36,903 nt of DNA from a virus: positions 1 through 36,903 of the IMG/VR virus record IMGVR_UViG_3300027365_000032; one strand, 5' to 3'. Position 1 is the stretch's first letter, and every line of letters starts with the position of its first letter. Positions 2,084 through 20,129 of the stretch are shown here, piece after piece. The notes beneath the pieces were generated by a model. The model was not told the origin of the DNA and did no database searches. It worked only from the letters and a program-made list of their open reading frames with translations. The translations under genes and the position numbers were made by a program.

Positions 2084-2091
2084 GGTAGCGT

Positions 2092-2502: not shown

Positions 2503-2504
2503 CC

Positions 2505-2945
2505 ATGCAGCTTAGCGATGGACTTCGTAACCACCTCGTCGCCACCGGCTCACTGAAGGCCGCTGTTGACGGTGCAGTTATCCGCCTGTACTCAGGCACT
2601 GCCCCTGCCACGCCGCACGACGCGGTGCCGGCGGGATCTACCATGTTGTGCGAGGTGTCCGTGGGTGGCGCTGGCACCGGTGTTACCTTTGAGCAAGGTC
2701 CGAACGCGGGTCTGCTTCTCAAGGCCCCCGGGGAATCTTGGGAAGGCACAGTCAACGCCGCAGACACTGCGACATGGTTCCGCCTCGTGTATCCAGCTGA
2801 TGCTGATGACAGCTCGACTTCTGCGGTGCGTATCCAAGGTACTGTTCAGGCCGCCGGCGGTGATATGCAAATCACAAACCCGAACCTGTCAGCCGGAGCT
2901 ACACAGATCATTGACTACTTCTCCATTGTAATGCCTGCAGCATAA
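2505..2945 (+). CDS. Putative small tail protein, 146 aa
   Basis: It begins two bases after the previous stop, with TAGGAG upstream of the ATG. It starts MQLSDGLRNHLVATGSLKAA and continues with an IRLYSGTAPATPHDAV segment, the pattern of small phage proteins that open with 'l.d.lrn.ll..gs....l.gg.l.iYsG..P.s.d.a..g..l'. Those usually lie beside tail fibre genes. It is beta rich, has no signal peptide, and has no enzyme motif. It ends 16 bases before the large fibre-like gene. Probably a virion appendage component, but the role is inferred. Confidence 0.55.
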   Translation: MQLSDGLRNHLVATGSLKAAVDGAVIRLYSGTAPATPHDAVPAGSTMLCEVSVGGAGTGVTFEQGPNAGLLLKAPGESWEGTVNAADTATWFRLVYPADADDSSTSAVRIQGTVQAAGGDMQITNPNLSAGATQIIDYFSIVMPAA

Positions 2946-2961
2946 GGGAGGCGGGGCCGCC

Positions 2962-4968: not shown

Positions 4969-6848
4969 TGTCGAAGAAGCACCGGCTTGAGTCCAACCTA
5001 ACCAACGCACCCATAGACTTGGCGTACGCCAAACGTCGGGGACAAGCTGTCCGTAGGGGGGTGCGGAGGGAGGTAAGGCGAGGGTTGCTTATTGAACACG
5101 TGAGACGTAACGGTCGGCGTAGGACCCGGGTGATAGACCTACCTCACAGGCTGACGCTTGTTGGCGCTGTAAGTTGGCCACGCGACCCGGGGGCCACTAC
5201 AGCGTCCGGCACTCCAAGATATGTCTACGCGTTCAGTAGCAGGGACGGGCTCATATCCGGTCAAGGTGTGATAGACGTAGCCCCCGAGGACATAACGGTA
5301 ACGTCAGGCGACAATAGCAAGTTACTCGGCGACTACTTAGTAACCTCGTATGGCCCCCCTTTGGGACCCCCGAGTGCGAATCTCAGTAGAACTGTCAGGG
5401 ATAAAAACCCGACTTCTATCTGTTTAACTTGGCTGGGGACAAACACCAACCAATGGGAGGGGGTGCCAGAGGTCTTGTTTATGCCGATGTCCCCGGATCG
5501 CCCGTTGGCGGTGGGGGTAAGTGCGTCAGCACACAGCAACAAGCTCGTACAGATAACTGTCGCCGAGTCCGTTATCAGACAGAGCACCGGATTTGGCCTA
5601 GTGGCTAGGGATAGAAAAAAACCGTTAATAACAGCGCCTCAGCTGTACGCCTTCGCTCCTGAGCCTACTGCGGATTGGGGGTCGTGGGGGGTGGTGCTGG
5701 CTTTCCCCGGTGTGGACTATAGCGATGAGCAATACGACCACGGGCTAAAGGGGCTAGTGTTTACCTACATTAACGCAGACGTTGTCCTTGGTACTGAAGT
5801 CGAGGGGAGTAGCAGTAGTGTTGTGGCTTTCCATCTCCCAGACGTCCCGCAGTTCCAGCAGGGGGTCTGGGTTGACGCCGGAGAGGACCACGACGACGAC
5901 CCTATTACTGGTCGGTTACCGTCGTTCATACACGGCGACGTTGTAGCCCCCACCAATGACGTAGGACAGCAGGTCGGCGAGTTTGTGTACTTCGGCGTGT
6001 ACCACGGTGGCGTGGACGTTGTCGTGGACGGAGAAAACGAAGTTGACTATCTGACAACATTGTTCTTCGCTGACTCGGCGGGGAATTTCCAGATTTTGAG
6101 GTCCACTTCCGCAAAAGACGAGCTGCCCGACGTACCAGTTAATGTACCTCCGTACTCCGACAAGCCGTTATATAACTACATGACAGCGTTTTATGCTGCT
6201 GGGTTAGTGTGGGGGGTCTGCATCGTGTATAGAGGTAGCGGACAACTGAAGAATGGCACAACAGGGCTCACCAACAGAGTATACGGGTTGTCTGTGCTGG
6301 TGGCTAACGAGTTCGGGATCGTCGAGGATGGCGTCCCGGCGGGAACCGAATTATTCGACTTAGGGGACGACGTCGAGTCGCTGACTTGGGGGCTTACAGT
6401 ACTCGGCGGGGATTATCGGACTGCGTCCCAGTCTGTCTTCGCCTGCCACCTAAACACCACAGACCATTTCGGGTTTACGTTCGCCGTCATACAAAACGGC
6501 AGGCGCAGGCTCGCTAAGTGGGATACCTTAGATGGGTTCGGTGTCTGGGATTTCGACTACGAAGATTTCGCGGGCGCCGACGGCAGTGTACCAGCTGTAA
6601 ACTGCTATCGTAGAGTTAGCGTTGCGGAGGACAGCTCAGGGGGACAGAAGGTCGTAGGCGACCCCGGTTTCGTTGTGTCGCACAACGGTGGTAGTGAGGG
6701 GGGAGCGACGTTCGTCGTTACTGCAGGGAAGTCCCGTAGAGTAGCCCCAGTTGGCGCAGCCGGTGGACTACCTACCGGCAACGTATTGTCCGTAAAAGGG
6801 TCCACATCGGACGCCTACCAAGTATATACTGCGCCAGAGGAGGGGTAA
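4968..6848 (+). CDS. Putative virion protein of unknown fold, 626 aa
   Basis: The best start is the ATG at 4968, overlapping the previous TAA; an upstream extension would run deep into the fibre gene. The first 50 residues are very basic (KRRGQAVRRGVRREVRRG) and the rest is acidic and beta rich, with many aromatic segments such as GEFVYFGVYHGGVDVVVDGE. I recognise no domain. Base use differs from the flanking genes: far more ATA, TTA, CTA, GTA, AGG and GGG codons. That suggests recent acquisition or a fast-changing module. Its place between the fibre gene and the next virion gene suggests a virion or host-recognition role, but this is not shown. Confidence 0.6.
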   Translation: MSKKHRLESNLTNAPIDLAYAKRRGQAVRRGVRREVRRGLLIEHVRRNGRRRTRVIDLPHRLTLVGAVSWPRDPGATTASGTPRYVYAFSSRDGLISGQGVIDVAPEDITVTSGDNSKLLGDYLVTSYGPPLGPPSANLSRTVRDKNPTSICLTWLGTNTNQWEGVPEVLFMPMSPDRPLAVGVSASAHSNKLVQITVAESVIRQSTGFGLVARDRKKPLITAPQLYAFAPEPTADWGSWGVVLAFPGVDYSDEQYDHGLKGLVFTYINADVVLGTEVEGSSSSVVAFHLPDVPQFQQGVWVDAGEDHDDDPITGRLPSFIHGDVVAPTNDVGQQVGEFVYFGVYHGGVDVVVDGENEVDYLTTLFFADSAGNFQILRSTSAKDELPDVPVNVPPYSDKPLYNYMTAFYAAGLVWGVCIVYRGSGQLKNGTTGLTNRVYGLSVLVANEFGIVEDGVPAGTELFDLGDDVESLTWGLTVLGGDYRTASQSVFACHLNTTDHFGFTFAVIQNGRRRLAKWDTLDGFGVWDFDYEDFAGADGSVPAVNCYRRVSVAEDSSGGQKVVGDPGFVVSHNGGSEGGATFVVTAGKSRRVAPVGAAGGLPTGNVLSVKGSTSDAYQVYTAPEEG

Positions 6849-6851
6849 TCC

Positions 6852-7808
6852 ATGGCAACAGAACTCGATACACGGTACCAAGGTACGACTGACTTCCTTC
6901 AGAAGCACGCGAGCAAGGCGCTGACCGAGGCCAGTAATGCCCGTAGGTGGATACTCAACAAGTCCAAGCCGGATCTTGAGCATCCACGACTGAACTTCGA
7001 TATAAGGAAGCCCAACCTCCAAGAACCCCCCAAGTTCTCAGACCTGTTCCCAGATAGTGACGGGACCAGCACAGAGGTAGAGCGCCTGAACAACATGGTC
7101 GACGAGTGGGTCAGCAAGTATTTCCCGTCGATTAACGACTGTTTCCAGAATACACCTGATGACTGGTTGTGCAATGTAATCAGCGGCGTTCAGCCGTACG
7201 GTCTCGATAAGACGGTGCTGGAGTTGATCTGGCACCAAGTCCGGGACCAAGAGCAGCAGACGTTCCAGTCTAGTGAGGCCCAGCTGCGCTCGAATTTTTC
7301 TGAGCGTGGGTTCAGCCTGCCTCCCGGGGCCTATGTTCGGGCGCTTGACAGGGTACGCCAGCGAGGCGACGCAGCCGTGCTGGAGGCCAACCGACAGGAG
7401 GCCATCCGCCACGAGGAGGTCCGGGTTCAGATGCTGCAGTTCGCGGTCGGCGAGGCAGTGCGATACAAGACCTCCATTATGAACTCACTGGCAGACTTCT
7501 ATCGGATGTGGGTCACTATCCCTGACAAGGACATTGAGCGGGCCCGGGTCCGGGCGCAGGCGCAGAGTTCCCTGTACTCAGCCCTCAGCACCTACTACAA
7601 CGTGGAGGTGGCATTCGAGGAGCTGCGCCTGAAAGCTGAGTCCAGTGACTTGGAGGCCCAGATGAACGCCGACCAGAACAAGATCGCTTTGTTCGATTCT
7701 GACAACGCCTCCACTGCACTGGGGCAGGCCGTACGTGGTTTCGCTCAGGTGTCTGGTGACGCGGCGAACGCAGCCGGCTCACTGATTGCACAAATCGAGG
7801 GTGTCTGA
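6852..7808 (+). CDS. Alpha-helical virion-associated protein, 318 aa
   Basis: A strong GAGGAGGGG precedes the ATG, which lies 3 bases after the previous stop. Residues from about 120 to the end are predicted to be long helices rich in Glu, Gln, Arg and Ala (for example RQEAIRHEEVRVQMLQFAVG). The C-terminus is Ala/Ser rich (ASTALGQAVRGFAQVSGDAA). Codon use returns to the genome norm, unlike the genes on each side. No membrane segment or catalytic motif is visible. Long helical proteins beside tail fibres are often chaperones, scaffolds or internal virion proteins; the sequence does not allow a choice. Confidence 0.6.
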   Translation: MATELDTRYQGTTDFLQKHASKALTEASNARRWILNKSKPDLEHPRLNFDIRKPNLQEPPKFSDLFPDSDGTSTEVERLNNMVDEWVSKYFPSINDCFQNTPDDWLCNVISGVQPYGLDKTVLELIWHQVRDQEQQTFQSSEAQLRSNFSERGFSLPPGAYVRALDRVRQRGDAAVLEANRQEAIRHEEVRVQMLQFAVGEAVRYKTSIMNSLADFYRMWVTIPDKDIERARVRAQAQSSLYSALSTYYNVEVAFEELRLKAESSDLEAQMNADQNKIALFDSDNASTALGQAVRGFAQVSGDAANAAGSLIAQIEGV

Positions 7809-7870
7809 TGATCGACGTACACCGCGAGGACTAAAGTCACGCCGGGACAATACAGGAAGGAAAAAGACCT

Positions 7871-8641
7871 ATGGCTTATAACGACGGACTAGAGTGCACA
7901 CCATTTTGGCAGTCGTTCTTTGGGACCCTAGAGGAGCTTAATTGTGAGGCGCCCAGTATAGGTCTGCCAAGTTTCACAGGTTTGTATTTTTCCACCTACC
8001 CGGTAGGACTTCGGGTGCCTGGAGCTACGGGGGTCGTTAAACACCCTACAGTTGAGTCTACACTAGACATAGAACCTATGACCAACGTCGCCACACTTAA
8101 TGAGGGGCAGATAACAGACGCACTCGTCTATTACGTTGACGACAGAAACCCTACATATTTTGGGAGGGTGCTCGCTGAACCTGTAGGTAACGAGTCTTTC
8201 GTCGGTTACAACGGTGACAACGTGGCATTTACCGTGCAACCGCCGGCCGACCAGTCGTGGGCAAACCAAGTGGCAGGGGCGTACCTCCACGTTTTTGTTC
8301 ACCCAGATGACACGAAAACTTTGTCAGATGTTATAAACGCTCAGACTGGCGACTTTCAGGTTTACTTCATCGCTGAAGTCAACGATGGAGACAGAAGTTA
8401 TGTTAACGAATACAAAATGGTGGACCCAAAGACGGCCGCTTCTATTGCTGATAGCCAAGGATACTTGCTAGGGGCTACGGTGGTTTTGGGTCGTTATATG
8501 GGGACGTCAGGTACTAACCCCTTCTTTATGTCAGCGAGGTTCCTCCGTGTAGAACTGATTGATAGCCAAGGTCAAGCCTACGACCTTGGTGTTTCCGGGG
8601 GTGTCTGCGTTAGCGCTATCGAATTAATCCCCGGCGTATAA
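7871..8641 (+). CDS. Protein of unknown function, 256 aa, last gene of the late module
   Basis: AGGAAGGA lies upstream of the ATG after a 62-base gap, the longest in this module. The protein is acidic and beta rich with many aromatic residues and no recognisable domain. Base use resembles the gene at 4968-6848 (frequent TTA, ATA, AGG, GTA) and differs from 6852-7808. This hints that the two genes share an origin and may act together, perhaps in host recognition. It is the last rightward gene and converges with the primase gene 24 bases further on. Confidence 0.55.
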   Translation: MAYNDGLECTPFWQSFFGTLEELNCEAPSIGLPSFTGLYFSTYPVGLRVPGATGVVKHPTVESTLDIEPMTNVATLNEGQITDALVYYVDDRNPTYFGRVLAEPVGNESFVGYNGDNVAFTVQPPADQSWANQVAGAYLHVFVHPDDTKTLSDVINAQTGDFQVYFIAEVNDGDRSYVNEYKMVDPKTAASIADSQGYLLGATVVLGRYMGTSGTNPFFMSARFLRVELIDSQGQAYDLGVSGGVCVSAIELIPGV

Positions 8642-8665
8642 AAGCGGCCGTCCTTGGCCTAGCCC

Positions 8666-11599
8666 CTACGTCCGGCTGTCTCCTTGCGCGGAGGCAATGG
8701 CGGCTCCCGCCACCTCCGCTGCACTCACTGACTGAGCCCCGCGGCTCACATTCCCAAGATCTGGGTGGTTCATGTTGAACACCCACGTCCAGACCTGTGC
8801 CGTCTTCCACTGGGTACCGCGCCCCAACACCATCCGGGTCTCGTCCTTCAGGATGCCCCGCTTGCGCAGCGCCGTCTTCAGGCGGTTCACGTCGATCTGG
8901 TGGTCGGCACAATACTGGCGGAAGTACGCCCGGTCCACATAGGCCACGCCGTGCCACGCCTCGTAACGAATCCGCAGCTCGTTCCTCGGCTCCTGCGTGG
9001 CGTAGGCCAGCTTGCCCTCCACCGGCTCGACGTTGAACGTCAGCATCTTGTCGAGGTTGGAGTTCAGGAAGTCACCGAGGATGGTCACCGGCGTCCGGGT
9101 GTTGTCGGTCACCGCGTCGCGCATGTTGCGGATCGCATCCACGCTGAAGTTGGCCAGCCGATCAATGTCCATGTCGGTAATACCGATATGGTTGGTGATC
9201 TCCAGCGCCGTCAGTATGCAGGCGGGGCCGGCTGCCCAGAACCGCTCGCCGCTGGACACGTTGGCTACGTCCTCGAAGTGTCGGGTCCATTCCTTGATCC
9301 GCTGGCGGACCCGGGGGATGTCACGCATCACCTCGTGGATGAACACCTCGCCGGCCAGACCGAAGTGGTCGTTCAGCAGGTCCAGTGTCTCGTCCGCTTC
9401 CGCCTTGGGGATCTGGCGCCCCGGCACGTAATACTCGAAGATCCTCACCGCCTCGGCCGACGCGTCGGCCTTGGCCAGCGACAGGCGGCTGTGCAGGCTG
9501 GCGTTCGAGGTGGTCAGCATCATCGTCTGCCACGAGCCGTGGTTCTCTTTGGCGCTACCGTCTTGGTTCAGACGCTGGCGACCCTGCCCCTTGCTTACGG
9601 CGTAGCACAGATCCGACAGGCTCTGCTCGTCGAGGTTGGTGATCTCGTCATAACACACTGGCAGGTTCTTCAGTACGCCGATCTTGTTGTAGAAGGCCCG
9701 CACCGTGTCGTGCTCGATGTCCGCCCAGCCATGGGACTTGTGCCCCCAGATGGAGTTGGCAACGTGCATGACGCTGGACTTACCGCAGCCCTTCTCACCA
9801 ACCATGGAGATAATCATTCCGTTATAGTTGGTGAAGCGGAACAGCGGCGCAGCGAAGCCGGCACCGATCCCGAACTGGAAGGGCTCCAGACCCGGGCGCT
9901 CGTACATGGCCACCACTTTACGCCACTCATTGATGTCGCCCTTCGGCGTCACCCAGTCCAGCGCGTTGGCGATGTTCTTGTGGACGTTGACTGGCAGGGT
10001 CTTGCCCTTCTCCAGTACCCGGTCGCCCAGCACGAACTTGCCATTGTCCCGCCATCCCAGCTGGGCATACACCGTACTGGCAGCGGATGTCTTCTGCAGC
10101 TCTCGAATGTATCCAAGCATGTATTGCACCAACAGATCTACCTTTCCAAGATCAGGCAGAACTCCTATGTCGCCCAGTGTGATCGACAGTTTCCGCCGGT
10201 CGTACAGCTGGCCCAGTGGCAGAGGGAACATGTCCCACCCGTCCTTCGGCAGCCAGCGACGCACCTCCACCACGTAGCGGGACTCCCGCTCGTCGTAGAC
10301 GATGGCCTGCGGATACACGTCGTGTTCGTAAATGACCTCCTCCATCTCGACGCCCTCATCGCCCACGATACGCATGGCGATCTTGGCGCTCTCGCCGTCT
10401 GGGGAGACCACGCGTTTGAACGGGAACGGGGGGTCCGGCAGGGTCATACCCTCAGTGTCCGGGTTGTCCAGCTGGTGGACGACCTTCGGCGGTTCGGCCT
10501 TGGTCATCTCTTGGCCCAGCTGCAGGGGTGTGCTGATCTTCCCGGCAAACGGACAGCCGGCGCACCCGCCCGGGTTGTGGTCCTCGAACGTGGTACACAA
10601 CGTCGGGCCCACACCTTGTTCAATGTGCTGCTGGATTTTCTTGTCTGTCTCTGAGGCGGAGTACCCACTGTACCCACGGCTCATCATGTGGACAGCCTTC
10701 TCACCTTTCTTGGCGTGGCGCAGGCAGCCGATCATGTCGTACCACTGCGGCTCCTCCACCTGCCCGGGGTTACCAGCCTGCCACGTCAGCTGCTTACACC
10801 GACGCACCGTCTCGCGGGGATCGGCCTGCGTGTACTGTTGAGTCAGGCCACCACTGGCGTCCTTGTTAATCTCCTCACCGGCGCCCTTCAGGTGCGAGGG
10901 CATGTCACCCAACTTCAGCTCCTGTACTTCGGCCTTCACTGGCTTGGCTGCTGGCAGTTCAATGGACGCCAGCGCCGCCATGAAATGGGTGGACGAGACA
11001 GGGTTGCGGCGCACCACCAAACGAACTGGGATCGGCTCACCATACTTGTGGTTAAACGTACCCGGGACGCGCAGGACGCTGGCACAGTCAGAAGTACGAG
11101 ACGGGTCCGCCTTCAGACCCCACACCTTGGTAGCCTGCTTCAGCTTGGCGGCGTAATGCAGCCACTGCTCTTTGTCTACGGACTTTTCGAGCGGCCAGTA
11201 GACGTGTAGGCCACCGCCGCTGTCCACGATGCACGGATCTGGTAGGCCGTGCGCCGTGATAAATTTCTTCAGCTCTGTCGCTGCTGTCCTTTGGTCAGGG
11301 TAGTGCTTCGGGTCGTCCTTAACGTCTATGTCGAGCCAGAACGCACCAAGGCGGACGATGTTGTCAGCCTTCCGAATACGTTTCTTGCGTACCTCGTTGA
11401 TAGAACCAAGAGCGAAGTAACAGTCCAGCCTGTCGCTGCGCGACTGCGCGTTCTCAAGCAGATTCTCAACGGTGTCACAGGTTACGTGTCGGAAGTAGTG
11501 GATGACCTCGCCTTCATCGTTCGTAAACTGCGCTGGAACTGCCAGAAGGTAGGGGCCTTCTTCCGGCAGTATGGCAGCCAATAGTTGTAGTTCAGTCAC
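8666..11599 (-). CDS. Bifunctional primase-helicase (AEP-like primase plus DUF927-type helicase), 977 aa
   Basis: GTG start with AAGGAGAT upstream. Residues 1-210 look like an archaeo-eukaryotic-type primase: a D-x-D pair at 90-92 (LDIDVKD), an S-G-G-G-L-H-V-Y-W core at 127-135 and LRVPGTFNHK at 176-185. Cys335, Cys346 and Cys349 form a possible zinc knuckle (with Cys268 or Cys292). Residues about 560-760 are a P-loop helicase of the DUF927 kind: Walker A GEKGCGKSS at 601-609, Walker B CYDE at 649-652 and a sensor TTSN at 696-699. It would synthesise primers and unwind DNA at the phage fork. The C-terminus (780-950) may be a winged helix. It is the last gene of the leftward replication operon. 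Confidence 0.85.
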   Translation of the reverse strand: MTELQLLAAILPEEGPYLLAVPAQFTNDEGEVIHYFRHVTCDTVENLLENAQSRSDRLDCYFALGSINEVRKKRIRKADNIVRLGAFWLDIDVKDDPKHYPDQRTAATELKKFITAHGLPDPCIVDSGGGLHVYWPLEKSVDKEQWLHYAAKLKQATKVWGLKADPSRTSDCASVLRVPGTFNHKYGEPIPVRLVVRRNPVSSTHFMAALASIELPAAKPVKAEVQELKLGDMPSHLKGAGEEINKDASGGLTQQYTQADPRETVRRCKQLTWQAGNPGQVEEPQWYDMIGCLRHAKKGEKAVHMMSRGYSGYSASETDKKIQQHIEQGVGPTLCTTFEDHNPGGCAGCPFAGKISTPLQLGQEMTKAEPPKVVHQLDNPDTEGMTLPDPPFPFKRVVSPDGESAKIAMRIVGDEGVEMEEVIYEHDVYPQAIVYDERESRYVVEVRRWLPKDGWDMFPLPLGQLYDRRKLSITLGDIGVLPDLGKVDLLVQYMLGYIRELQKTSAASTVYAQLGWRDNGKFVLGDRVLEKGKTLPVNVHKNIANALDWVTPKGDINEWRKVVAMYERPGLEPFQFGIGAGFAAPLFRFTNYNGMIISMVGEKGCGKSSVMHVANSIWGHKSHGWADIEHDTVRAFYNKIGVLKNLPVCYDEITNLDEQSLSDLCYAVSKGQGRQRLNQDGSAKENHGSWQTMMLTTSNASLHSRLSLAKADASAEAVRIFEYYVPGRQIPKAEADETLDLLNDHFGLAGEVFIHEVMRDIPRVRQRIKEWTRHFEDVANVSSGERFWAAGPACILTALEITNHIGITDMDIDRLANFSVDAIRNMRDAVTDNTRTPVTILGDFLNSNLDKMLTFNVEPVEGKLAYATQEPRNELRIRYEAWHGVAYVDRAYFRQYCADHQIDVNRLKTALRKRGILKDETRMVLGRGTQWKTAQVWTWVFNMNHPDLGNVSRGAQSVSAAEVAGAAIASAQGDSRT
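8688..8719. terminator. Long hairpin at the convergent gene junction, possible terminator
   Basis: GCGGAGG (8688-8694) pairs with CCTCCGC (8713-8719), and TGGCGG (8698-8703) pairs with CCGCCA (8707-8712), with a CAA bulge and a CTC loop. It lies inside the last codons of the leftward primase gene, just past the end of the rightward genes, where a terminator for either transcript would be useful. There is no T-tract on either strand, so intrinsic termination is uncertain. Confidence 0.35.
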
Positions 11600-11638
11600 A
11601 GCCGATCTCCTTCACACGTTGTCGGGGGTACCTTCCGA

Positions 11639-11959
11639 TCAGTCCGAAACGTGGTGGCTGCGCAGTTTGTCTCGAAGGAACGCGGCGCGGTCGTTGGGGG
11701 ACAGGCCATACAGGTCGTCGTAGATTCCCAATTCTTCGTTGGCTGCGTTAAGGCGGTCGATCTTCAGTTCTACTGCACGGAGGATATGCTGCGCTGGTTT
11801 GCGCATCTTGCCACCGCGTACGGTGAACCATTCTTTCAGAGAGTTCTGGCTAACGTCCAGTACCTTGGATGCCGCGGCGTAAGACAGCTGGGTCTCAGCC
11901 AGAAAAAGCTCGTACTTGGCTTTGAAATCAATTTGTTCTTGGGTCAGTTCAGTAGTCAT
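11639..11959 (-). CDS. Small helix-turn-helix DNA-binding protein, 106 aa
   Basis: The ATG at 11959 is preferred over 11965 because it is better spaced from GGAGC. Residues 20-55 (LSYAAASKVLDVSQNSLKEW) form a helix-turn-helix of the kind that binds DNA in phage regulators. The rest is charged and helical. It lies between the SSB-like gene and the primase-helicase gene, 47 bases after the former, with a UUCG hairpin in the gap. It may regulate early transcription or assist replication. Family membership beyond HTH is not clear. Confidence 0.65.
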   Translation of the reverse strand: MTTELTQEQIDFKAKYELFLAETQLSYAAASKVLDVSQNSLKEWFTVRGGKMRKPAQHILRAVELKIDRLNAANEELGIYDDLYGLSPNDRAAFLRDKLRSHHVSD

Positions 11960-11981
11960 AACCATGCTCCAAAATATCAGT

Positions 11982-11997
11982 GGCCCCCGAAGGGGCC
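11982..11997 (-). other. Perfect 6-bp hairpin with a TTCG tetraloop between two genes
   Basis: On the minus strand GGCCCC-TTCG-GGGGCC lies 10 bases after the SSB-like gene's stop and before the HTH gene. UUCG loops make very stable RNA hairpins. Only four Ts follow, seven bases downstream, so it is a weak terminator at best. It may protect the 3' end of the SSB message or reduce downstream expression. Confidence 0.55.
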
Positions 11998-12006
11998 GTT
12001 GTTCTG

Positions 12007-13074
12007 TTAGTCGTCCCAACCTTCAAACACGGAGTCAACGGCAGAGCCGCTGTCAGCCACGGTTGCTTCGGCTTGGGTGTGCTGCTTGGCCGGCGGCTCC
12101 TCGGCAGTCTTGGTCTCCTGCTTGGCCGGCTCAGGTTCCGGGTCCGGTGTGGCAGCCGCACCGCCCCAGTCGTCCACTGCCTGCTGCTTGGCCTTCTCAG
12201 CTTCCTCAGCCTTACGCCGTTCCTCCAGTTGCTCCGGGGTCAGCTCTGGCTGCGCCGGCGTTTCTGGTTTGGTTTGCTGTGCTTCGTCTTTACCACCTAC
12301 CTCGGGCGCCGGGCGCAGACCTTCAGGCTCCGGGTCTGTGATCGGGGTGATGGTCGCCACCTTGATGGTCTCCTCAGACTCGAAGCGACTGCTCACCTGC
12401 TCGTATTCCTCGTCAGTCAGGTACCGCTGCGGCTCGAACTGCAGGCGCGGGAAGTCAGCCTCAGTGTCGAAAGACAGGCGGGTCACCACACCATTATAGG
12501 GTACAGCCGGCGATACGTTGTCCAACATGCGCAGGTATTTGGCAAACTCGCCAAGAGACGCACCGGGGATGGACAGCTGGTATGCGTCGCTGGCCACGTT
12601 CGAGGCTGGCACAATGGCCACTCGCTTACGGTCGTCACAGGCTTTGATTTTCTTGCCACTGATCTTGCTGATCGCGGAGCCCCACGCTGCCTTCGGGCAG
12701 TTCTTGCACCAGCGGTTCACTGGGTTCTCGACGTTCGGGCTCGGGTGTACGCCGTTGTCGGACCAGCAGCGCGGCATCTTGTCCTCAGCGTTCGGGTCGT
12801 ACTCGCCCTCGAAGTACATCTTGCTGGCTTCGGGGTTGGCACGCAGGAACACCACGTCGAGGTACGGTTCTTGGAACACTTTGACCTGCTCGCCACCCAC
12901 GATCAGACGGAAGCGGGACGCCTTGATACTGATGCGGTTCGGGGACTCGCCGCCGCCGGCACCCTTGGCGGCCTCTTTGTTCATCGCCTTGGCGTCGACA
13001 CGGTTCACGAACGACGGCAGATTGCCGTTGCCCTGAAGTACCGCCAGTCCTTTCTCTGTTTGGTTATCGCTCAT
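12007..13074 (-). CDS. Putative single-stranded DNA-binding protein, 355 aa
   Basis: The ATG at 13074 follows GAGGTGG with good spacing and is preferred over the GTG at 13083. The first 210 residues are a globular domain with a possible zinc cluster (CW at about 103, then CKNCP about 20 residues later, then C 25 further on). The C-terminal third is a Pro/Glu/Gln-rich linker ending in DSVFEGWDD. An acidic tail with an aromatic residue at the very end is the hallmark of SSB proteins that recruit partners. It sits between helicase and primase genes, as phage SSBs often do. The fold is not one I can name, so the SSB call is functional inference. Confidence 0.6.
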   Translation of the reverse strand: MSDNQTEKGLAVLQGNGNLPSFVNRVDAKAMNKEAAKGAGGGESPNRISIKASRFRLIVGGEQVKVFQEPYLDVVFLRANPEASKMYFEGEYDPNAEDKMPRCWSDNGVHPSPNVENPVNRWCKNCPKAAWGSAISKISGKKIKACDDRKRVAIVPASNVASDAYQLSIPGASLGEFAKYLRMLDNVSPAVPYNGVVTRLSFDTEADFPRLQFEPQRYLTDEEYEQVSSRFESEETIKVATITPITDPEPEGLRPAPEVGGKDEAQQTKPETPAQPELTPEQLEERRKAEEAEKAKQQAVDDWGGAAATPDPEPEPAKQETKTAEEPPAKQHTQAEATVADSGSAVDSVFEGWDD

Positions 13075-13084
13075 TGGTACCACC

Positions 13085-13480
13085 TCAAGAAGATTTGCGA
13101 ATGTTGACGTTGATGACTTCCTCGACCTTCACGCCGGGGGGTGTCGGGTTACCAGACTTCATAAACTCTTTCAGGTTGGTAGAGCTGATCCGTTTCTGTA
13201 ACAGATCCACCTCACCAGTCTCCCTGACGTAATCACAGAAAGCGGTCCAGTCTGGAATAGACGCTCGTGTGGTTTTGGATTGGAATACCGTGGCACCGCC
13301 AGCGGTAAACTTTTCGTGGCCAGTCTCGTGCATGTGTTGGAGAAGCCAGTTCTCACCACGCTCGTACATCTTACGCAGTTTTCTGTCTTCTTCCTCGTAC
13401 TGCTTCTTTAACTGGCTCCGTTGGTCTCGGAGTTCCAGCATACGCTGGATGACTTCTTCTGCTCTCGGTTGCTCGCTCAT
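13085..13480 (-). CDS. Coiled-coil phage protein of unknown function, 131 aa
   Basis: A strong GGGAGGTG precedes the ATG. Residues 8-50 are a charged coiled coil (AEEVIQRMLELRDQRSQLKK). Residues 55-131 hold a small domain ending in PPGVKVEEVINVNIRKSS. This layout is common in small phage proteins coded next to SSB or recombination genes, where some act with exonucleases or ssDNA. It is the first gene after the promoter at 13506-13535, with a leader of about 20 bases, so it and the SSB, HTH and primase genes probably form one transcript. The specific role is unknown. Confidence 0.6.
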   Translation of the reverse strand: MSEQPRAEEVIQRMLELRDQRSQLKKQYEEEDRKLRKMYERGENWLLQHMHETGHEKFTAGGATVFQSKTTRASIPDWTAFCDYVRETGEVDLLQKRISSTNLKEFMKSGNPTPPGVKVEEVINVNIRKSS

Positions 13481-13505
13481 GCTACACCTCCCTTGGTGAG
13501 TTTAT

Positions 13506-13535
13506 ATAGTACAACTAAGGCTAGGGTTGTGTCAA
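13506..13535 (-). promoter_or_regulatory. Sigma70-like promoter for the SSB/primase operon
   Basis: Minus strand TTGACA (13530-13535), 18-base spacer, TACTAT (13506-13511). Transcription would start near 13499, just before the Shine-Dalgarno of the 131-aa gene. The TGA stop of the helicase gene (13532-13534) lies inside the -35 box. Confidence 0.65.
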
Positions 13536-16039
13536 GTCGACTCGCCTCGGGCCTCTTTGTACAGTTCGAGTACGCTGTTCTGCATCTGGGCCTTGTTCTC
13601 AAGGGCCTCGTACACCTTCCGCTCGATCCACGTCGAGCAGATCATGGCCACGGTCATGTGGTTTTTTTGTCCCGGACGGTTCATCCTGTTGTTGGCCTGC
13701 TCAAAAATCTCCAACGAGAAGATTGGCCCGTACCAGATGGTCGTGTCTGCTTTGGTTAACGTCAGCCCGTGCGCCGTGGTCTGCGGGTGGGCCACCAGAA
13801 TGTGGGGCTCCGCCTCATGTTGGAAATCGTGGAACACCTGCTTGCGCTTGGTAACGCTGGTGTCACCTTCCACCACAGCCACCTTGTGCCCTGTGTTCTT
13901 CTCCAGATACGTGGCCACGCGATGCAGTGCCGCTGTAAATGGGACGAACACGATTACCTTATTGCTCGCCTGCTCGACGATCTCAGCACACAGCTTCAGC
14001 CGGTGCGATGAATCCACCGTGGTGGGTATGCCGTTGTTGTCGTACACCTCACCACAGCACACTTGCAGTAACTTGTTCAGGCGTACACCGGCGTTGGCGG
14101 CGGTGATCTTGTTGCCGGCCACGTCCATGACCAGCTCTTTGTGCATCTCTTTGAAGGCTTCCTTCTGTGCCTTGGTCTGCTCGCACTCGTACCGCTGGAA
14201 CGTCACCGGCGGCAGGTCGATACAGTCTTCCTTCCGGTACCGGACCCCGGGCTGCAGGATGTCGTAAGCTGTTTGGTATGCGTCAGGTTTGGGTATCCAG
14301 CGATACGTTGTCACCTGTGTCATCACCTGCGACTTGAACGCCGAGAAGTACTTGGGCACCTTCGGGTTCTTCAGCATCCGACCCAAGGCCCATGCGTCCG
14401 TGGGCTGCGTGGGGCACGGCGTACCGGTCAGTAACCACAGCCAGTAGGTCTCTTTGGTCAGGCGGTTAAGGCACTTGCTCCGGTTGGACTGAGCGTTACG
14501 GAACGACGCCACCTCGTCTACCACCCACAAGTCAAAACCCTTCTCTGCCAGTTCCTTCTCAATGGTCTTGATGCCGTCGTGGTTGATGATGTAGAACGGC
14601 ACGTCTTCGTTCAGTAGGCGCAGGCGCTTCTGCTTATCGCCGTGCAGCACCACACACCGACGACTAAACAGAAAGTGGGTGTGCAGCTCGTTCTCCCACA
14701 CTGACATCACCGACTTCGGACACACAATGATGGCCCGGCGGATCTTGCCAATTTCCATAAGGTAGTCCGTGGCCCATAACACACTGAGGGTTTTGCCTGT
14801 GTTGCCGGTGGCAAAGATGCACCCGTTCCGACGGAGGAGCAGAAACGTGCTGGGTACCATGAAGCAATACTTGTACCCGTCTGGGCTGGGCTCACGCCAC
14901 ACGGACTCAGACTTTGTCTTGTCAGCTTTCTGTCCAGTGAGGTATAGCAGCGCGGCCTTGTCCCGGGCGTGGACGCAGTAACACGTCGCCTTCCCTTCTC
15001 GTACATCCGCAGTCACCCGGGCGGTGCGGCCGGTAGCCGAGAAAGCGTATTGAATAAAATCCGCCGACGCCTTGCTGGTCGAGAAGAACTCAACGGCTCC
15101 AGCTTTTCGGGTCGCCCCATCCCAGTGAACACACTCGTCAGCGATCACTTCCAGCTGGGCTTCAGTCGCCTGCCAGAACAGGGTGCCGTACTCTTTCGTT
15201 TCCAGTGGCGGGGCAAATCGGAACACCGTGAACCCAGTGGTTTTACATAGCCGCTGGTCGTACGTTATCCACGCCTCGTCCAGCAGCTGCTTCATGCGCT
15301 CGATCTTTCGGGGCTTTTGCAGTCTTACCGATGCCACCTTTGACGGCGTCAAATGTCCGTCGGCCATGTACGCGACCTGTAACCGCAGAGCCTCGTCCGA
15401 CAGCGGTATACCGCGACCGCCCAATGTATTGAAGGTTGTTATGAACCGCCCTTTCCACCCGTACTTAGCGGCGTGGTGGCGGTGCTCTATTTCGGCGGCG
15501 TTGCGTACCTGCCACTCCCCAGTGCTGGTTACATATAACACACGGTGCTCCGGCGACAGCAGCTGATCTACGCCGCGGCTGGTCTTGAACCGTATCATTT
15601 CGGGGCACGGTTTCTTGACGTACTCCGTAGGCTGAACGTACTCGATATTGCCAGTGTCGGGGTGGTACTGCGCCACCTGCCCGCCGTCGTAGTCGTCCAT
15701 CCTGCGCCACCCGGTAGGGGACAGGTACTCCGTGGTTGCGTCCACGCACCCCATGTCGTTCAGGCAGATGGATCTCGGGTTCAACGTGAGGAACGCGCTG
15801 GTCTCACGCTGGTGGGTGAACGGGTCGAACTTACCCTTCCACTGATACATATAGTTGATGGGGCTGGGGGCGTTGATGCCGATGTTGTTCAGCACTTTCA
15901 CCTCGTCCAGCCCAAAGCGTACCTGTGTCAGCGGTACGCCGTCCTTCTCTACGACCCGGGACTTGGGGATCACCGACGTGACCCTGTCCGGGTTGCGCAG
16001 CTTCAGGACCAGTGAGTTACTCGGTTTGTGTACCAACAT
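13532..16039 (-). CDS. SNF2-type DEAD/DEAH helicase interrupted by an intein, 835 aa
   Basis: The host protein is a superfamily 2 helicase of about 519 residues after splicing. Motif I is split: ...NDMG (94-97) precedes the insert and TGKT (414-417) follows it. Motif II is WVVDEVASF (506-513), motif III LTGTP (537-541) and motif VI NRMNRPGQ (784-791), typical of SNF2/Swi2-like proteins. Such phage helicases remodel DNA in replication or recombination. The ATG at 16039 has a poor Shine-Dalgarno. The insert (98-413) removes the function of the Walker A loop until it is spliced out. The stop is inside the -35 box of the downstream promoter. Neighbours are nucleases and the SSB-like gene. Confidence 0.88.
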   Translation of the reverse strand: MLVHKPSNSLVLKLRNPDRVTSVIPKSRVVEKDGVPLTQVRFGLDEVKVLNNIGINAPSPINYMYQWKGKFDPFTHQRETSAFLTLNPRSICLNDMGCVDATTEYLSPTGWRRMDDYDGGQVAQYHPDTGNIEYVQPTEYVKKPCPEMIRFKTSRGVDQLLSPEHRVLYVTSTGEWQVRNAAEIEHRHHAAKYGWKGRFITTFNTLGGRGIPLSDEALRLQVAYMADGHLTPSKVASVRLQKPRKIERMKQLLDEAWITYDQRLCKTTGFTVFRFAPPLETKEYGTLFWQATEAQLEVIADECVHWDGATRKAGAVEFFSTSKASADFIQYAFSATGRTARVTADVREGKATCYCVHARDKAALLYLTGQKADKTKSESVWREPSPDGYKYCFMVPSTFLLLRRNGCIFATGNTGKTLSVLWATDYLMEIGKIRRAIIVCPKSVMSVWENELHTHFLFSRRCVVLHGDKQKRLRLLNEDVPFYIINHDGIKTIEKELAEKGFDLWVVDEVASFRNAQSNRSKCLNRLTKETYWLWLLTGTPCPTQPTDAWALGRMLKNPKVPKYFSAFKSQVMTQVTTYRWIPKPDAYQTAYDILQPGVRYRKEDCIDLPPVTFQRYECEQTKAQKEAFKEMHKELVMDVAGNKITAANAGVRLNKLLQVCCGEVYDNNGIPTTVDSSHRLKLCAEIVEQASNKVIVFVPFTAALHRVATYLEKNTGHKVAVVEGDTSVTKRKQVFHDFQHEAEPHILVAHPQTTAHGLTLTKADTTIWYGPIFSLEIFEQANNRMNRPGQKNHMTVAMICSTWIERKVYEALENKAQMQNSVLELYKEARGEST
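14801..15748 (-). mobile_element. Intein with a LAGLIDADG-like homing endonuclease in the helicase Walker A loop
   Basis: The insert of 316 residues (98-413) begins with Cys98 (CVDATTEYLSPTGW, the N-terminal splice block). It has a TSRGVDQLLSPEHRVLYV segment fitting splice block B (with the block B His at 165). Near its end is RRNGCIFATGN, closing on Asn413. The next residue is Thr414, usable as the +1 nucleophile. Between them, VAYMADGHLT (222-231) fits a LAGLIDADG/DOD motif, and CVHWDG (303-308) is a second conserved point. The penultimate residue is Gly in place of the usual His, which is tolerated in some inteins. The insertion point is G|T of the GxGKT loop, a favoured intein site in P-loop proteins. 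Confidence 0.85.
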
Positions 16040-16139
16040 AGTCGTTGACCATCCGTGCTATCGGTGGTTTACTGGTGGGGCGAATGCACTCATGCCATGC
16101 TTCGCCTCCATGCTGGGGCAGGGACGCCCCCTCCTACCT
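16040..16139. other. 100-base gap with a small GC hairpin and no convincing gene
   Basis: The gap between the nuclease and helicase genes contains GGGGC (16114-16118) and GCCCC (16125-16129), which can pair on either strand. A 17-codon frame starting MEAKHGMSAF exists on the minus strand but has no well-placed ribosome site, so I do not call it a gene. Confidence 0.3.
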
Positions 16140-16463
16140 TTATTCCCAGAACTCAATGTTCGACGTTTGAATGTGCGGCGCTGCCAGCCATGCGTCCAAC
16201 GTATCCATGTTGTCCTCATTGATAATCAGCGCCGTGCCGCCGGCGTCCCGTATCTCATTGAGACGTACCAGCTGCAGCTTGGTCGGTTTGCCCTTCCCGG
16301 CTTTGGCCTCAACGCCAGCGAAGTACCCGGCGTGGCACAGCAGGATATCTGGTGTGCCATTCTGTGCCATACCCGTCATCACAGGCATGGTGTGGTAGGC
16401 GCCGGCATCCTTGGCCTTCTTCTTGATCTTGTCCTTAACTTTTTTCTCAGGTGTTTGTGCCAT
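16140..16463 (-). CDS. VRR-NUC domain nuclease, 107 aa
   Basis: A single-domain PD-(D/E)XK enzyme of the VRR-NUC family: G-x-P-D at 36-39 (Asp39), V-E-A-K at 51-54 (Glu52, Lys54) and a following K-x-Q motif at 62-64 give the active site. The N-terminal 20 residues are very basic (EKKVKDKIKKKAKDAG) and probably bind DNA. The length is typical for phage VRR-NUC proteins, which cut branched DNA such as Holliday junctions in replication and packaging. It lies just upstream of the SNF2 helicase gene and overlaps the 151-aa gene by 17 bases, so they are co-translated. Confidence 0.85.
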   Translation of the reverse strand: MAQTPEKKVKDKIKKKAKDAGAYHTMPVMTGMAQNGTPDILLCHAGYFAGVEAKAGKGKPTKLQLVRLNEIRDAGGTALIINEDNMDTLDAWLAAPHIQTSNIEFWE

Positions 16464-16902
16464 CGTTCACCTCGATATCAATGTTGCCAAATACAACCTC
16501 GTCGCCGTCGAACAGTGCACCCATGCAGCCGAGGGGGTTGTCCACCCGGACCTCCGGCGATCCTTCGTGCAACCTGATCACCGTCTCACGGACGGACCCG
16601 ACGAGTCCGTCAACAGTGAAACCATCACGGTCTAAGACGAACCTATTATCATTCCTACGATGGAAACTTACTCGTTCGACATGCTCAGTTCGGTCGGTGC
16701 GGATCACCAGCTCGACCGGGGCACCCAGTGCTAATGCAGCTCTGAGCACCTGTAGCCCGGCCTGTTCAGCGTGCTGGGCGGCCAGCTCATTGTGGAGCTG
16801 GTCTACTTCCCGTTGTAGTTCCCGTTGTGCGGGCAGCTTTCTACCTCGCACCACCGCTTGCAAAGCCCGGAAGGCTTCGGTGGAAAGTCGTCTAATTCCC
16901 AT
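16447..16902 (-). CDS. Unknown protein with an N-terminal coiled coil, 151 aa
   Basis: The ATG at 16902 follows a good GGAGG, but the first 100 bases overlap the 3' end of the Cas4-like nuclease gene in another frame. No internal ATG before residue 127 gives an alternative. Residues 15-65 are an Arg/Glu/Gln-rich coiled coil (LQREVDQLHNELAAQHAEQA). The rest is beta rich (VEHVERVSFHRRNDNRFVL, then DGFTVDGLVG). I recognise no family. It sits between two nuclease genes and may assist them. The overlap is unusually long, so the N-terminal part is less certain than the rest. Confidence 0.6.
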   Translation of the reverse strand: MGIRRLSTEAFRALQAVVRGRKLPAQRELQREVDQLHNELAAQHAEQAGLQVLRAALALGAPVELVIRTDRTEHVERVSFHRRNDNRFVLDRDGFTVDGLVGSVRETVIRLHEGSPEVRVDNPLGCMGALFDGDEVVFGNIDIEVNDGTNT

Positions 16903-17513
16903 GCTTCCTCCAACTGCTCGTACTTGTTCTCCCAGTACGCCAGCATCTCGTCCAGCTGCTCTCGCCTATACTCGACTGGCGGGTCAATCTCCCCCTCCTT
17001 CAGCCAGATGAACCCGGCCTTCACCCGCTTGAGCTGTGGGTTGGTGATGAACGCCACCATGGCGTACAGCAGGAGCTGGTCCTGATCGTTCTTTTTCTTG
17101 CCGGTCTTCCAGTCGTACACCTCGGCGTAGTCTCCCAGCAGGAGAGTCACGTCGATCTTGGTGCGGAACCACACTGGGTTGGGTGCCGTCTTCTTGGTGA
17201 ACCAGCTGACCGACTTCAGGTCCTTGGTCAGTGCCACCTGCTGCTCGGCAATCAGCTTGCCACCCAGCTTGTCGGCCCGGCGCTGCACGGCGTCGAGCAG
17301 TGGCTTGTACTGCAGCATGTTGGAGGGCATCGGGCGACCCAGTTTGATCGCATCCTCCAGTGCCTTGTGGACCTCGTCGCCCCACTTGGCTGCCGCGTTC
17401 TGGACGAACGGCACTTCCTTGGTGACGTGCTTGGCTTGGTACTGCCGGGGGCAGGTCTCAAAGGTGTTCATGGCCGAATAGGACCACGAGATTACTTTCG
17501 GTTGTTCAGTCAC
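16803..17513 (-). CDS. Cas4/RecB-like PD-(D/E)XK nuclease with Fe-S-type cysteines, 236 aa
   Basis: GTG start with GGAGGG upstream. Conserved points of the RecB/Cas4 nuclease family are visible: S-Y-S-x-x-x-T-F-x-x-C-P at 11-22, H49, K119-I-D121, D134-W-K136 and Q146-L-L-L-Y150. Four cysteines (21, 218, 222, 227) match the 4Fe-4S arrangement in Cas4 and AddB-like exonucleases. It probably resects DNA ends during phage replication or recombination. It overlaps the small upstream gene by 8 bases and the 151-aa gene by 100. No cas1 or cas2 and no CRISPR array are present, so a CRISPR role is not supported. Confidence 0.85.
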   Translation of the reverse strand: MTEQPKVISWSYSAMNTFETCPRQYQAKHVTKEVPFVQNAAAKWGDEVHKALEDAIKLGRPMPSNMLQYKPLLDAVQRRADKLGGKLIAEQQVALTKDLKSVSWFTKKTAPNPVWFRTKIDVTLLLGDYAEVYDWKTGKKKNDQDQLLLYAMVAFITNPQLKRVKAGFIWLKEGEIDPPVEYRREQLDEMLAYWENKYEQLEEAWELDDFPPKPSGLCKRWCEVESCPHNGNYNGK

Positions 17514-17709
17514 GGGGACCCTCCAGTCGTTCAGCTCTCACCCGCAGGTCTTCCAGATCACGATAGCTGTCTTCGAGATCCTGTTCGTGCTTGCCTCGGC
17601 GTGCTGGCGGGATGAACTGAATCGCCCCCTCCAACATACCGACCAGCCTGCGGGTCATGTCGTAACTCTGCCACAAAGATTTCTGGCGGATAGGTGTGAT
17701 AGATGCCAT
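17506..17709 (-). CDS. Small unknown protein, 67 aa
   Basis: The ATG at 17709 comes right at the end of the DNA polymerase gene (its TAG stop is followed by CATGG). The longer frame starting at 17757 would run inside the polymerase, so the shorter version is chosen. The protein starts MASITPIRQKSLWQSYDM and ends in a charged helix (DLEDSYRDLEDLRVRAERLE), likely a short coiled coil. It overlaps the nuclease gene by 8 bases. No function recognised; coupling suggests a helper of polymerase or nuclease. Confidence 0.6.
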   Translation of the reverse strand: MASITPIRQKSLWQSYDMTRRLVGMLEGAIQFIPPARRGKHEQDLEDSYRDLEDLRVRAERLEGPRD

Positions 17710-17710
17710 G

Positions 17711-19711
17711 CTATTTCGCACTCCCATATCGCTGGGCAATATCCCCCTCTGCCGCAACCGGAAGTTGAGGCCACCAGTCAGGCGGGGTTGCCATAGTTTT
17801 TATCGCGTGATCCAAGCAGTCCTGTGCTTGCTCACTCTTTACTACTGTAACCGCCTCGTCGTGTACTGTCAAAACTACGCCTTGGGTTGGGCGACTATAC
17901 CCACCCCAGACGCGTTCGATCTCAAGGCACTGGTCACACACGATGATCCCGGCCAACGCTTGGCACAGGTTCTCAGTCACGGCACCGCCGTACAGTTTCT
18001 TGGTGACACGCTTGCGCTTGTCGTCGTACACCCACTGCATACCGTCCCAGTCTTCGTCGTAGACTTCGCGCAGGTTGGGGTACACCAGCTTGCGCCCCCG
18101 GGGCAGGTAGATACAGTTCTTGCCGGTAACGCACAGGCCCCACTGGTCAATGGCCATCTCCCGGCCGCTGGCCATGGCCCGGATGGCTTTCTCGCAACGC
18201 TTCCACAGCTTGGGCAGCATCGGGAACCGGGTGCGGTAGAAGTCCACGGTCCCCCGGGCGTTCTCCTCACTCAGCTCCAGACCGCCCATGACCCGGGCGG
18301 CGTTCTGGAACGACGACCAGCCAGACTGGTACTGCAACTGGAGCATGGCCACCTTGCCGTGGAACCGCTCACCCGGGTGGTCCTTCTTGTTGACCGGGTA
18401 ACCGTACAGGTCACTGGCGAACCACGCATACAGGTCCTCGCCGTTGTGCAGTTTCTCCACCGTGTCCATCTGCCCGGCCAGTGTGTGCGCCACCCGCAGC
18501 TCGATGTTGGAGGAGTCCACCACAACCAGCTGGTGCCCATGCGGCGCAGCCACGCCGTCACGCAGGCCGAAGCAGTGCAGATCCTTGACGTTCCACTCCC
18601 CGCCCTCGCGGTCGGACACGACGCCGGACTCCGGGTCGAACTCGTCGAAGGTGCGCAGGCCGTTGGGCGTCACGATCAGCGTGCCCGGCAGGGTCTTGTC
18701 GGTAACCGCCCGGCCCCGGCCCATATTCTGCAGGTTGATCTTGCCGCCGCCGGCAGCCCGACAGGTCTGCGTCGCTCCCCAGATCAGCGGCGCCGGCAGC
18801 TTCCCGCGTCGTGCGATACCACGGAACCGGTCCACCCGGGTCTGTTCGATGGAGGTCTTGGTCTTCAGGCGAGCCTCGGCCAGCAGGCGGACGTACTCCT
18901 TACCGTGGTCCAGCAGCGCCGTCATACCCTTGTCGGTTTTGGCAAAGGCGAAGGCGGTCTTACCTGTCTTCTTGCTGATCTTGGTGGGCGGCTCCACGCC
19001 ACACCCACGCAACAGTTCCGCGAACTTCTTGTCGCTGCGTAGGTCCTTCACGTCCAGCCCCAGTCTGTCGAGCAGGGCCTGCCGCTCGTTGGCCAGCTGC
19101 TCGGCGAACAGGTCGTAGGCGTGGCCGTCCAGCTCCAGCCGTGGCTGAGCGAACATCTTGGTGAACCAGTGGATCGCCTGCAGGTCCTTCGTCGGAACCT
19201 TGTTTAACAGGATGTTAAAGATCGCCGTACACAGCTCGGAGTCGTGGTTACAGTAGTCGGTGTAGCTGGCCCAGTCCTCCTCGCTCATGTCGCTGGCCCG
19301 CTTGCCCTTCATGTCGTGGACCGCCGTGCCCTTGGCGGGCAGGCCGAAGCGTTTGGCCAGCGCCTCCAGCGAGTAATTGCCTTGGTCCGGTAGGGCCTGC
19401 CTCGCCATGGACAGGGTGCAGCCCCAGCGCCGGGGTGTGATCCCCAGCTTCTCGGTCAGCACCAGCGAGTCGAAGCCGATGTTGTTGTGGGCAATGCACC
19501 ATACTTTGTCCCACGGGATCTTGCGCAGCTGAGCGGCGATCTCCTCGTGGGTGCCAGAGAAGAACTTGGCCCGCTTGCCGTGCGGCTGCACTGAGATACC
19601 AATGATCTCGAACCGCTCGTCACGGATGTACTCCTCCGGGGTCATCTTTCGCAGGCTGTAGTCATTGTCGTAGTAAGTTTCCGCATCTATTGTTACCGGG
19701 GCCAGCCTCAT
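17711..19711 (-). CDS. Family A DNA polymerase with 3'-5' exonuclease, 666 aa
   Basis: The exonuclease domain has D9-x-E11, the N-x-x-x-F-D81 motif and Y153-x3-D157. Polymerase motif A is VVDSSNIELR (Asp399), motif C is VHDEA (His617, Asp618), and the O-helix is R449-x3-K453-x3-L457-x3-Y461. There is no 5'-3' exonuclease domain. Leu457 is at the place of E. coli Phe762, a site where viral enzymes carry Phe, Tyr or Leu. It is the main replicative polymerase of the phage. The ATG overlaps the stop of the zinc-ribbon gene (ATGA), and it sits in the middle of the replication operon. Confidence 0.93.
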   Translation of the reverse strand: MRLAPVTIDAETYYDNDYSLRKMTPEEYIRDERFEIIGISVQPHGKRAKFFSGTHEEIAAQLRKIPWDKVWCIAHNNIGFDSLVLTEKLGITPRRWGCTLSMARQALPDQGNYSLEALAKRFGLPAKGTAVHDMKGKRASDMSEEDWASYTDYCNHDSELCTAIFNILLNKVPTKDLQAIHWFTKMFAQPRLELDGHAYDLFAEQLANERQALLDRLGLDVKDLRSDKKFAELLRGCGVEPPTKISKKTGKTAFAFAKTDKGMTALLDHGKEYVRLLAEARLKTKTSIEQTRVDRFRGIARRGKLPAPLIWGATQTCRAAGGGKINLQNMGRGRAVTDKTLPGTLIVTPNGLRTFDEFDPESGVVSDREGGEWNVKDLHCFGLRDGVAAPHGHQLVVVDSSNIELRVAHTLAGQMDTVEKLHNGEDLYAWFASDLYGYPVNKKDHPGERFHGKVAMLQLQYQSGWSSFQNAARVMGGLELSEENARGTVDFYRTRFPMLPKLWKRCEKAIRAMASGREMAIDQWGLCVTGKNCIYLPRGRKLVYPNLREVYDEDWDGMQWVYDDKRKRVTKKLYGGAVTENLCQALAGIIVCDQCLEIERVWGGYSRPTQGVVLTVHDEAVTVVKSEQAQDCLDHAIKTMATPPDWWPQLPVAAEGDIAQRYGSAK

Positions 19712-19881
19712 GCGTTACCTCCTCGTGTCCGTGTCGCCCGGTTGTTTGTGACAACAGGTTTCTGGTTGGGTTTGAGTTCCCATGGCAACGCCCGCCCGCA
19801 TCGGCTGCAGATGCGCTTACGCAAACTACTGAGCCGGATGAGGTTGGTGTCACCACAATCAGGGCAGGCGTCTTTGGTCAC
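19708..19881 (-). CDS. Small zinc-ribbon protein, 57 aa
   Basis: GTG start at 19881, chosen because GGGGGAG precedes it and the upstream stop overlaps it (GTGA). Two C-x2-C pairs (CPDCG and CSRCG, 19 residues apart) form a zinc ribbon, followed by LPWELKP and a basic tail. Zinc ribbons of this size bind nucleic acid or partner proteins. It is coupled directly to the DNA polymerase gene and may be an accessory factor. The exact role cannot be told. Confidence 0.65.
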   Translation of the reverse strand: MTKDACPDCGDTNLIRLSSLRKRICSRCGRALPWELKPNQKPVVTNNRATRTRGGNA

Positions 19882-20129
19882 GGGTTCTCCCCCTGTGCTG
19901 TCAGCCAGAAATACAGCCCGCCGACGCGGACCTTCCCGTCGTACATCCACTTGTCCTTGGTTGGCCAGAAGTCCAGCTTCTTGCCCTTGACCGTACGCCC
20001 CCAGTGGTAGGGCGTGTGCTGCTTCCAGTTCGAGAGATCGTACGTCGCTTCGTTGCGGGCCAGCCGCTGCTGTCGAAGCTGCTTATGGTACTCAGCGGTC
20101 TCCCGATACAAGTCTGTTGTTTCGCTCAC
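19878..20129 (-). CDS. Conserved small phage-type protein, 83 aa
   Basis: GTG start at 20129, after AGGAG with a 7-base gap; an upstream ATG is inside the preceding gene and has no such site. The N-terminus is helical (ETAEYHKQLRQQRLARNE). The C-terminus has aromatic-rich segments (GKKLDFWPTKDKWMYDGKVR) that resemble small phage proteins starting from a 'LDFWPTk.kW' motif. It overlaps both neighbours. No catalytic residues are evident. Confidence 0.6.
   Translation of the reverse strand: MSETTDLYRETAEYHKQLRQQRLARNEATYDLSNWKQHTPYHWGRTVKGKKLDFWPTKDKWMYDGKVRVGGLYFWLTAQGENP

Follow-up and report, generated by a model that had tools for sequence, protein, structure and literature searches.

The window, as we call the whole 36,903-nucleotide stretch of viral DNA analysed here, carries on its minus strand an open reading frame for an SNF2-type helicase that is interrupted by an in-frame insert. 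The features discussed below are the following (window coordinates; insert residues numbered from its first Cys).

13532..16039, minus strand: SNF2-type helicase precursor ORF, 835 aa (Pfam SNF2-rel_dom and Helicase_C; PHROG 62, DNA helicase)
15749..16039, minus strand: N-extein, 97 aa, C-terminal ...LNDMG; co-linear with the N-terminus of the intein-free Rollin helicase
14801..15748, minus strand: intein, 316 aa, Cys1 to Asn316, ORF residues 98-413
15746..15748, minus strand: Cys1, presumed first nucleophile, block A (invariant, 84/84)
15545..15547, minus strand: His68, block B:10 (SPEHR), an invariant column
15356..15382, minus strand: LAGLIDADG motif 1, block C, LQVAYMADG, residues 123-131, acid Asp130 (Asp130 in at least 90% of rows)
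15116..15148, minus strand: LAGLIDADG motif 2, block E, VIADECVHWDG, residues 201-211, acid Asp210 (W209 and D210 invariant)
14864..14866, minus strand: Cys295, block F:4, the nucleophile position of class 3 inteins (invariant)
14801..14809, minus strand: Thr314-Gly315-Asn316, end of block G (G:5 Thr, penultimate Gly, terminal Asn)
13532..14800, minus strand: C-extein, 422 aa plus stop, N-terminal TGKT, with Thr as the +1 nucleophile
14798..14800, minus strand: Thr+1, C-extein residue 1, within Walker A

Within the 835-aa ORF, Pfam recognizes SNF2-rel_dom no earlier than residue 404 and Helicase_C over residues 683-790, and PHROG 62, a phage DNA helicase family, spans residues 400-833. The insert is flanked by ...ICLNDMG/TGKTLSV... 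(slashes mark insertion points), splitting the Walker A motif (GTGKT) after its first Gly, and it extends from Cys98 (codon 15748-15746) to Asn413 (codon 14803-14801) of ORF 13532-16039 (minus strand). The preliminary description of this DNA had an insert at 14801-15748 dividing DMG from TGKT, starting with Cys and ending with Asn; these coordinates are correct to the base, and both terminal residues are conserved in 84/84 relatives. The combination by which an intein is recognized is present: an in-frame insert, a nucleophile at position 1 (C1), a terminal Asn (N316), and a Cys, Ser, or Thr at +1 (T+1). Joined to each other, the exteins give a 519-aa protein that is co-linear with two intein-free helicases, one of 522 aa from Pseudomonas phage Rollin and one of 527 aa from Rhizobium phage RHph_TM3_14A. 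Because the insert splits the P-loop, the unspliced precursor should lack ATPase activity until splicing has occurred.

Several other features were noted around the helicase. Just upstream, at 16140-16463 (minus strand), lies a small endonuclease-like gene (PHROG 93), and in the Rhizobium phage relative an annotated VRR-NUC protein is encoded a few genes upstream of the helicase. Further away, at 26438-28749 (minus strand), a metallopeptidase/VWA protein (DUF2201) sits beside a PHROG 1297 ATPase, a MoxR/VWA-like pair. A candidate intein relic in the neighboring DNA polymerase (VTPNGLRTFDEF) was rejected; the polymerase of phage Rollin has the same stretch.

Scanning for the C-extein with single-sequence patterns retrieved nothing, and SNF2 relatives in viral contigs were instead identified with a C-extein profile. 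Among the best 80 of these relatives none carries the intein, and 79 have an uninterrupted G/TGKT or G/SGKT junction; the sequence of the remaining one (L094) stops at the contig end. Being drawn from the best-scoring relatives, these counts are no measure of frequency. The corresponding site is also unbroken in the helicases of Pseudomonas phage Rollin (DMG-TAKT) and Rhizobium phage RHph_TM3_14A (SMG-TGKT), and in those of Xp15 and Effie. Hence, the intein-free relatives that the preliminary description had suggested looking for do exist. A second, intact helicase in the same phage, which it had regarded as counter-evidence, is absent from the 36.9-kb record, itself possibly a fragment. In L008 (and L014), a 1175-aa SNF2 ORF harbors a second, different intein after LLQIS with a canonical HN end (CIAYNTPVL...LIVHN/C); the window helicase has no insert at the corresponding position (KLLQVCCGEVYD).

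The insert belongs to a large set of phage sequences. A tblastn search with the insert alone matched 228 phage records, 220 of them at a coverage of at least 80%, and among the matches listed the full-length ones run from query residue 1 to residue 316. Given these matches, the insert is not due to chance. PHROG 32482 likewise spans insert residues 1-316 (1.5e-43). Pfam Intein_splicing gave no match to the genome, and neither Pfam nor NCBIfam matched the insert; these collections therefore miss this intein family. There is no named close relative of the phage, as megablast of window positions 1-20000 against phages returned no match. In total, 84 distinct full-length viral copies of this element, all sharing both ends, were collected from many unrelated proteins, including RtcB RNA ligase, PhoH, DnaB-like, RecD-like, and PIF1-like helicases, terminase, a clamp-loader-like ATPase, RecG, and primase. 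All 84 retain C1 and the terminal Asn, and the residue right after the copy is T, C, or S in every case. The junction is of the P-loop type G/[TSC]xK[TSG] in 68 of the 84 and corresponds to the RtcB site G/CGM in seven. The endonuclease is dispensable in the family, since a 158-aa member in a Klebsiella phage terminase is without it. As judged from these comparisons, the window insert is a well-preserved additional member, and the P-loop of an SNF2 helicase is a new site for a family now spread over many unrelated P-loop ATPases as well as RtcB ligases.

Individual members add some variety. In L191 a family intein interrupts a methyltransferase-like protein (FFEVG/CGIGTK) and groups within the RtcB inteins of the tree; a short G-[CTS]-G codon context, and not the protein family, thus seems to guide insertion. 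The L205 ORF (primase/helicase-like) and the L204 ORF each hold two family inteins at different sites. A distant member is found at L012:459-1379 in a family A DNA polymerase (RYYGAH/TGRWSG), and a nearby SNF2 helicase is interrupted by an intein as well, so that this contig has two. In three different phages, annotated HNH endonucleases follow closely downstream of intein-carrying genes (L036:4042-4647, L037:4772-5449, and L038:4470-5156).

An AlphaFold model of the intein, built on 18 aligned sequences, has a mean pLDDT of 86.7 and a pTM of 0.85. It aligns with the TliVMA intein over 291 residues (Z 23.6, rmsd 4.1; Foldseek, VIA-align) and also with PhoVMA, PI-SceI, and PI-PfuI, and Foldseek matches it to PI-SceI and, over 165-168 columns, to I-DmoI. 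The predicted fold, which by itself does not demonstrate activity, is that of a HINT splicing domain with a LAGLIDADG endonuclease, matching solved inteins from end to end. In an alignment of 31 members, C1, W14, H68, K148, W209, D210, Q233, C295, G315, and N316 are invariant, while A129 and D130 are conserved in 90% or more of the members. The LAGLIDADG-like VAYMADG mentioned in the preliminary description is indeed there, as part of LQVAYMADG; a second motif, VIADECVHWDG, had been overlooked. Both motifs keep their catalytic acid (Asp130 and Asp210), and by this measure the endonuclease is intact. Family, empty sites, and fold agree with the original proposal of an intein with a homing-endonuclease motif in the Walker A loop of a phage SNF2 helicase.

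Evidence for mobility comes from relatives. Over the length of the intein, the DNA of the L015 and L018 helicase genes is 96-99% identical. Outside it, identity drops stepwise on the upstream side (93, 86, and 67% over consecutive stretches of 100 bases) and to 81% downstream; dS is 0.087 for the intein vs 0.478 for the C-extein. Because identity peaks at the insert and decays outward, as co-conversion would leave it, this pattern reads as a homing footprint. In L002 and L013, the C-exteins are 76% identical and the inteins more diverged (dN 0.447 vs 0.203); the two inteins sit in different clades of the intein tree, where L005 (same allele as L002) stands in for L002, a picture that would fit an allele swap. 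An empty helicase, L125, has a C-extein 76-77% identical to both. Across the intein tree at least 13 changes of host class were counted, vs a mean of 41 after shuffling, which suggests that family inteins mostly keep to their site and occasionally switch genes, e.g., the RecG copies within the RtcB clade. For the window intein itself, comparison of intein and C-extein with those of L001, its nearest copy, at synonymous sites revealed no footprint of a recent move. The intein dS (~1.5) is as in the exteins; the window intein is thus old relative to L001 and may have had no recent homing event. The intein is under constraint, with a dN/dS ratio in the same comparison of ~0.18, vs ~0.30 for the C-extein.

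Collectively, these data point, with a probability that we put at about 95%, to a mobile intein with an intact LAGLIDADG endonuclease in the Walker A codons, which would home at the DNA level and excise itself to yield a 519-aa helicase. Building on the ends, the empty sites, the family, the predicted fold, and the footprint in relatives established above, we infer the following course of DNA cutting and splicing and order of nucleophiles for the window intein. The endonuclease would cut helicase alleles without the intein at their conserved P-loop codons, and the intein would be copied in as the break is repaired. At the protein level, the precursor would excise residues 98-413 and join DMG to TGKT. 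Cys1 would attack the N-terminal scissile bond, most likely by the class 1 route, and the chain would then be passed to Thr+1. Asn316 would cyclize, aided by residues other than a penultimate His, and the block-F Cys295 may assist or serve as a relay nucleophile. The insert is thus best read as a selfish, homing-competent intein, probably spliced promptly, that sits where the phage has little freedom to alter its codons.

The role of Cys295 touches on the class of the intein. A class 1 feature is the Cys1 found in 84/84 copies, with a putative role as first nucleophile. No family member without Cys1 was found, including among copies selected without the YCF pattern (see below), and its retention in every one of the 84 copies examined suggests that Cys1 is needed. 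Class 3 inteins are defined as having no Cys at position 1 (PMC7891396), and the window intein, like all its relatives, has one; it is therefore not class 3 by the published definition. Moreover, the class 3 triplet Trp B:12/Cys F:4/Thr G:5 is incomplete, with Cys295 and Thr314 present and Val at B:12. Cys1 thus most likely signals a class 1 route. A refinement compatible with the mobile-intein reading is that Cys295 is used as in class 3 and Cys1 serves as an accessory or alternative nucleophile; the family would then bridge the two classes. We regard this as possible and rather unlikely. It draws on the joint conservation of the F:4 Cys and G:5 Thr/Ser with Cys1. The block-F Cys is present in all further copies read separately, while its count within the 84 is biased, because one scan used a YCF pattern; copies from protein searches are free of that bias. 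It draws also on the nearest solved splicing domain by sequence and by fold, that of the AceL NrdHF intein, which has been shown to splice by the class 3 route (PMC7891396) and which has the same G:5 Thr and missing penultimate His. Among solved structures, AceL NrdHF alone matches significantly by sequence (6.3e-7; next 0.064), and it has the best fold score among structures of a splicing domain only (Z 18.6 over 151 residues; next 16.2), with class 3 DnaB inteins at Z 13.5-13.7. A phage search with 103 residues of its N-terminal part returned weak matches, several of them to this intein family (Lederberg RtcB, Vibrio phage 277E43-1 terminase, an E. coli phage DNA polymerase, and Staphylococcus phage NAMPT), all with Cys1 where read. 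These weak matches suggest that the family and AceL NrdHF are akin. Against the bridge, however, stand the published definitions, the Val at B:12, and the loss of Cys1 in 0/84 copies; in addition, Cys is the second most common residue at F:4 across inteins (PMC4031507) and may only assist.

An evolutionary extension of this idea is equally tentative: the family might be a clade with two nucleophiles, Cys1 and the block-F Cys, that gave rise to class 3 inteins of the AceL NrdHF type once Cys1 was lost. A 2020 study considers that class 3 is unlikely to have evolved directly from class 1 (PMC7664689). Were the extension true, both nucleophiles would coexist and the block-F Cys would already be able to take the chain. 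The fixed Cys pair, together with the closeness to a proven class 3 intein, offers a concrete test of how intein mechanisms evolve.

The mobile-intein reading also has to be weighed against conditional splicing, i.e., an intein that blocks the helicase until a set time or condition is reached and then frees it, thereby regulating phage replication, as the preliminary description had suggested. The insertion in Walker A would inactivate the precursor, the two active-site Cys residues could be redox-sensitive, and some helicase inteins, that of mycobacterial DnaB among them, are reported to splice conditionally (PMC6195587). In this context, the preliminary description had correctly observed Gly instead of His at the penultimate position (G315), suggesting that splicing may therefore be slow or controlled. 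That part is not supported, as Gly occupies this position in 84/84 distinct copies and in further copies read separately, and a distant homolog with Gly is reported to splice completely. In the recombination directionality factor (RDF) intein of Bethlehem gp51, splicing is reported to be complete with the native Gly, whereas the G316H variant is slow, taking >5 h for ~50% (PMC5050341). The activity data are from Bethlehem gp51 and the sequence compared here is that of Switzer gp53; the latter, 317 aa long and ending in LTGN, fits the penultimate G316 of Bethlehem and begins with Cys just upstream of the family-profile match. As the homology is distant (~59-64 bits to the family profile), the result carries over to the window intein by analogy. 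Gly being the rule in the family, it should not be taken as a sign of slow or regulated splicing. Moreover, the 79 related helicases without the intein indicate that regulation by it is not needed, and the sporadic distribution and the homing footprint fit a selfish element, which leaves conditional splicing improbable. A degenerate, non-splicing insert in a helicase pseudogene is very improbable, for although the penultimate and block-F His residues are missing, they are missing across the whole family, the key residues, open frame, and helicase motifs are all intact, and dN is far below dS.

The mobile intein proposed here can be compared with several known systems. The PHROG 32482 inteins (PhoH-like; Acinetobacter phage AM24) belong to the same family over the full length, have the same ends, and likewise interrupt a P-loop; the AM24 intein differs in its host, PhoH, and is 36% identical. 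The mycobacteriophage RDF intein resembles that of the window in Cys1, the block-F Cys (VWCLRV), the TGN end with its penultimate Gly, and LAGLIDADG motifs, and differs in its host protein and in having Ser at +1; that of Bethlehem gp51 has been shown to splice, and its nuclease is toxic (PMC5050341). AceL NrdHF, a split class 3 intein (PDB 6zgq), shares the F:4 Cys, the G:5 Thr, and Ser at B:7 and is likewise without penultimate and block-F His, but has Ala1 instead of Cys1 and Met at B:12, is split in two, and is without a LAGLIDADG domain (PMC7891396). The Deinococcus radiodurans Snf2 intein is comparable by its host, also an SNF2 protein; it is reported to be class 3, without a position-1 nucleophile (PMC4031507). 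Finally, the mycobacteriophage TerL1-a and TerL1-b inteins, likened by description, likewise interrupt Walker A of a phage ATPase (PMC5050341), but the host is a terminase, and TerL1-a is inserted between the P-loop Lys and Thr, downstream of the site used in the window.
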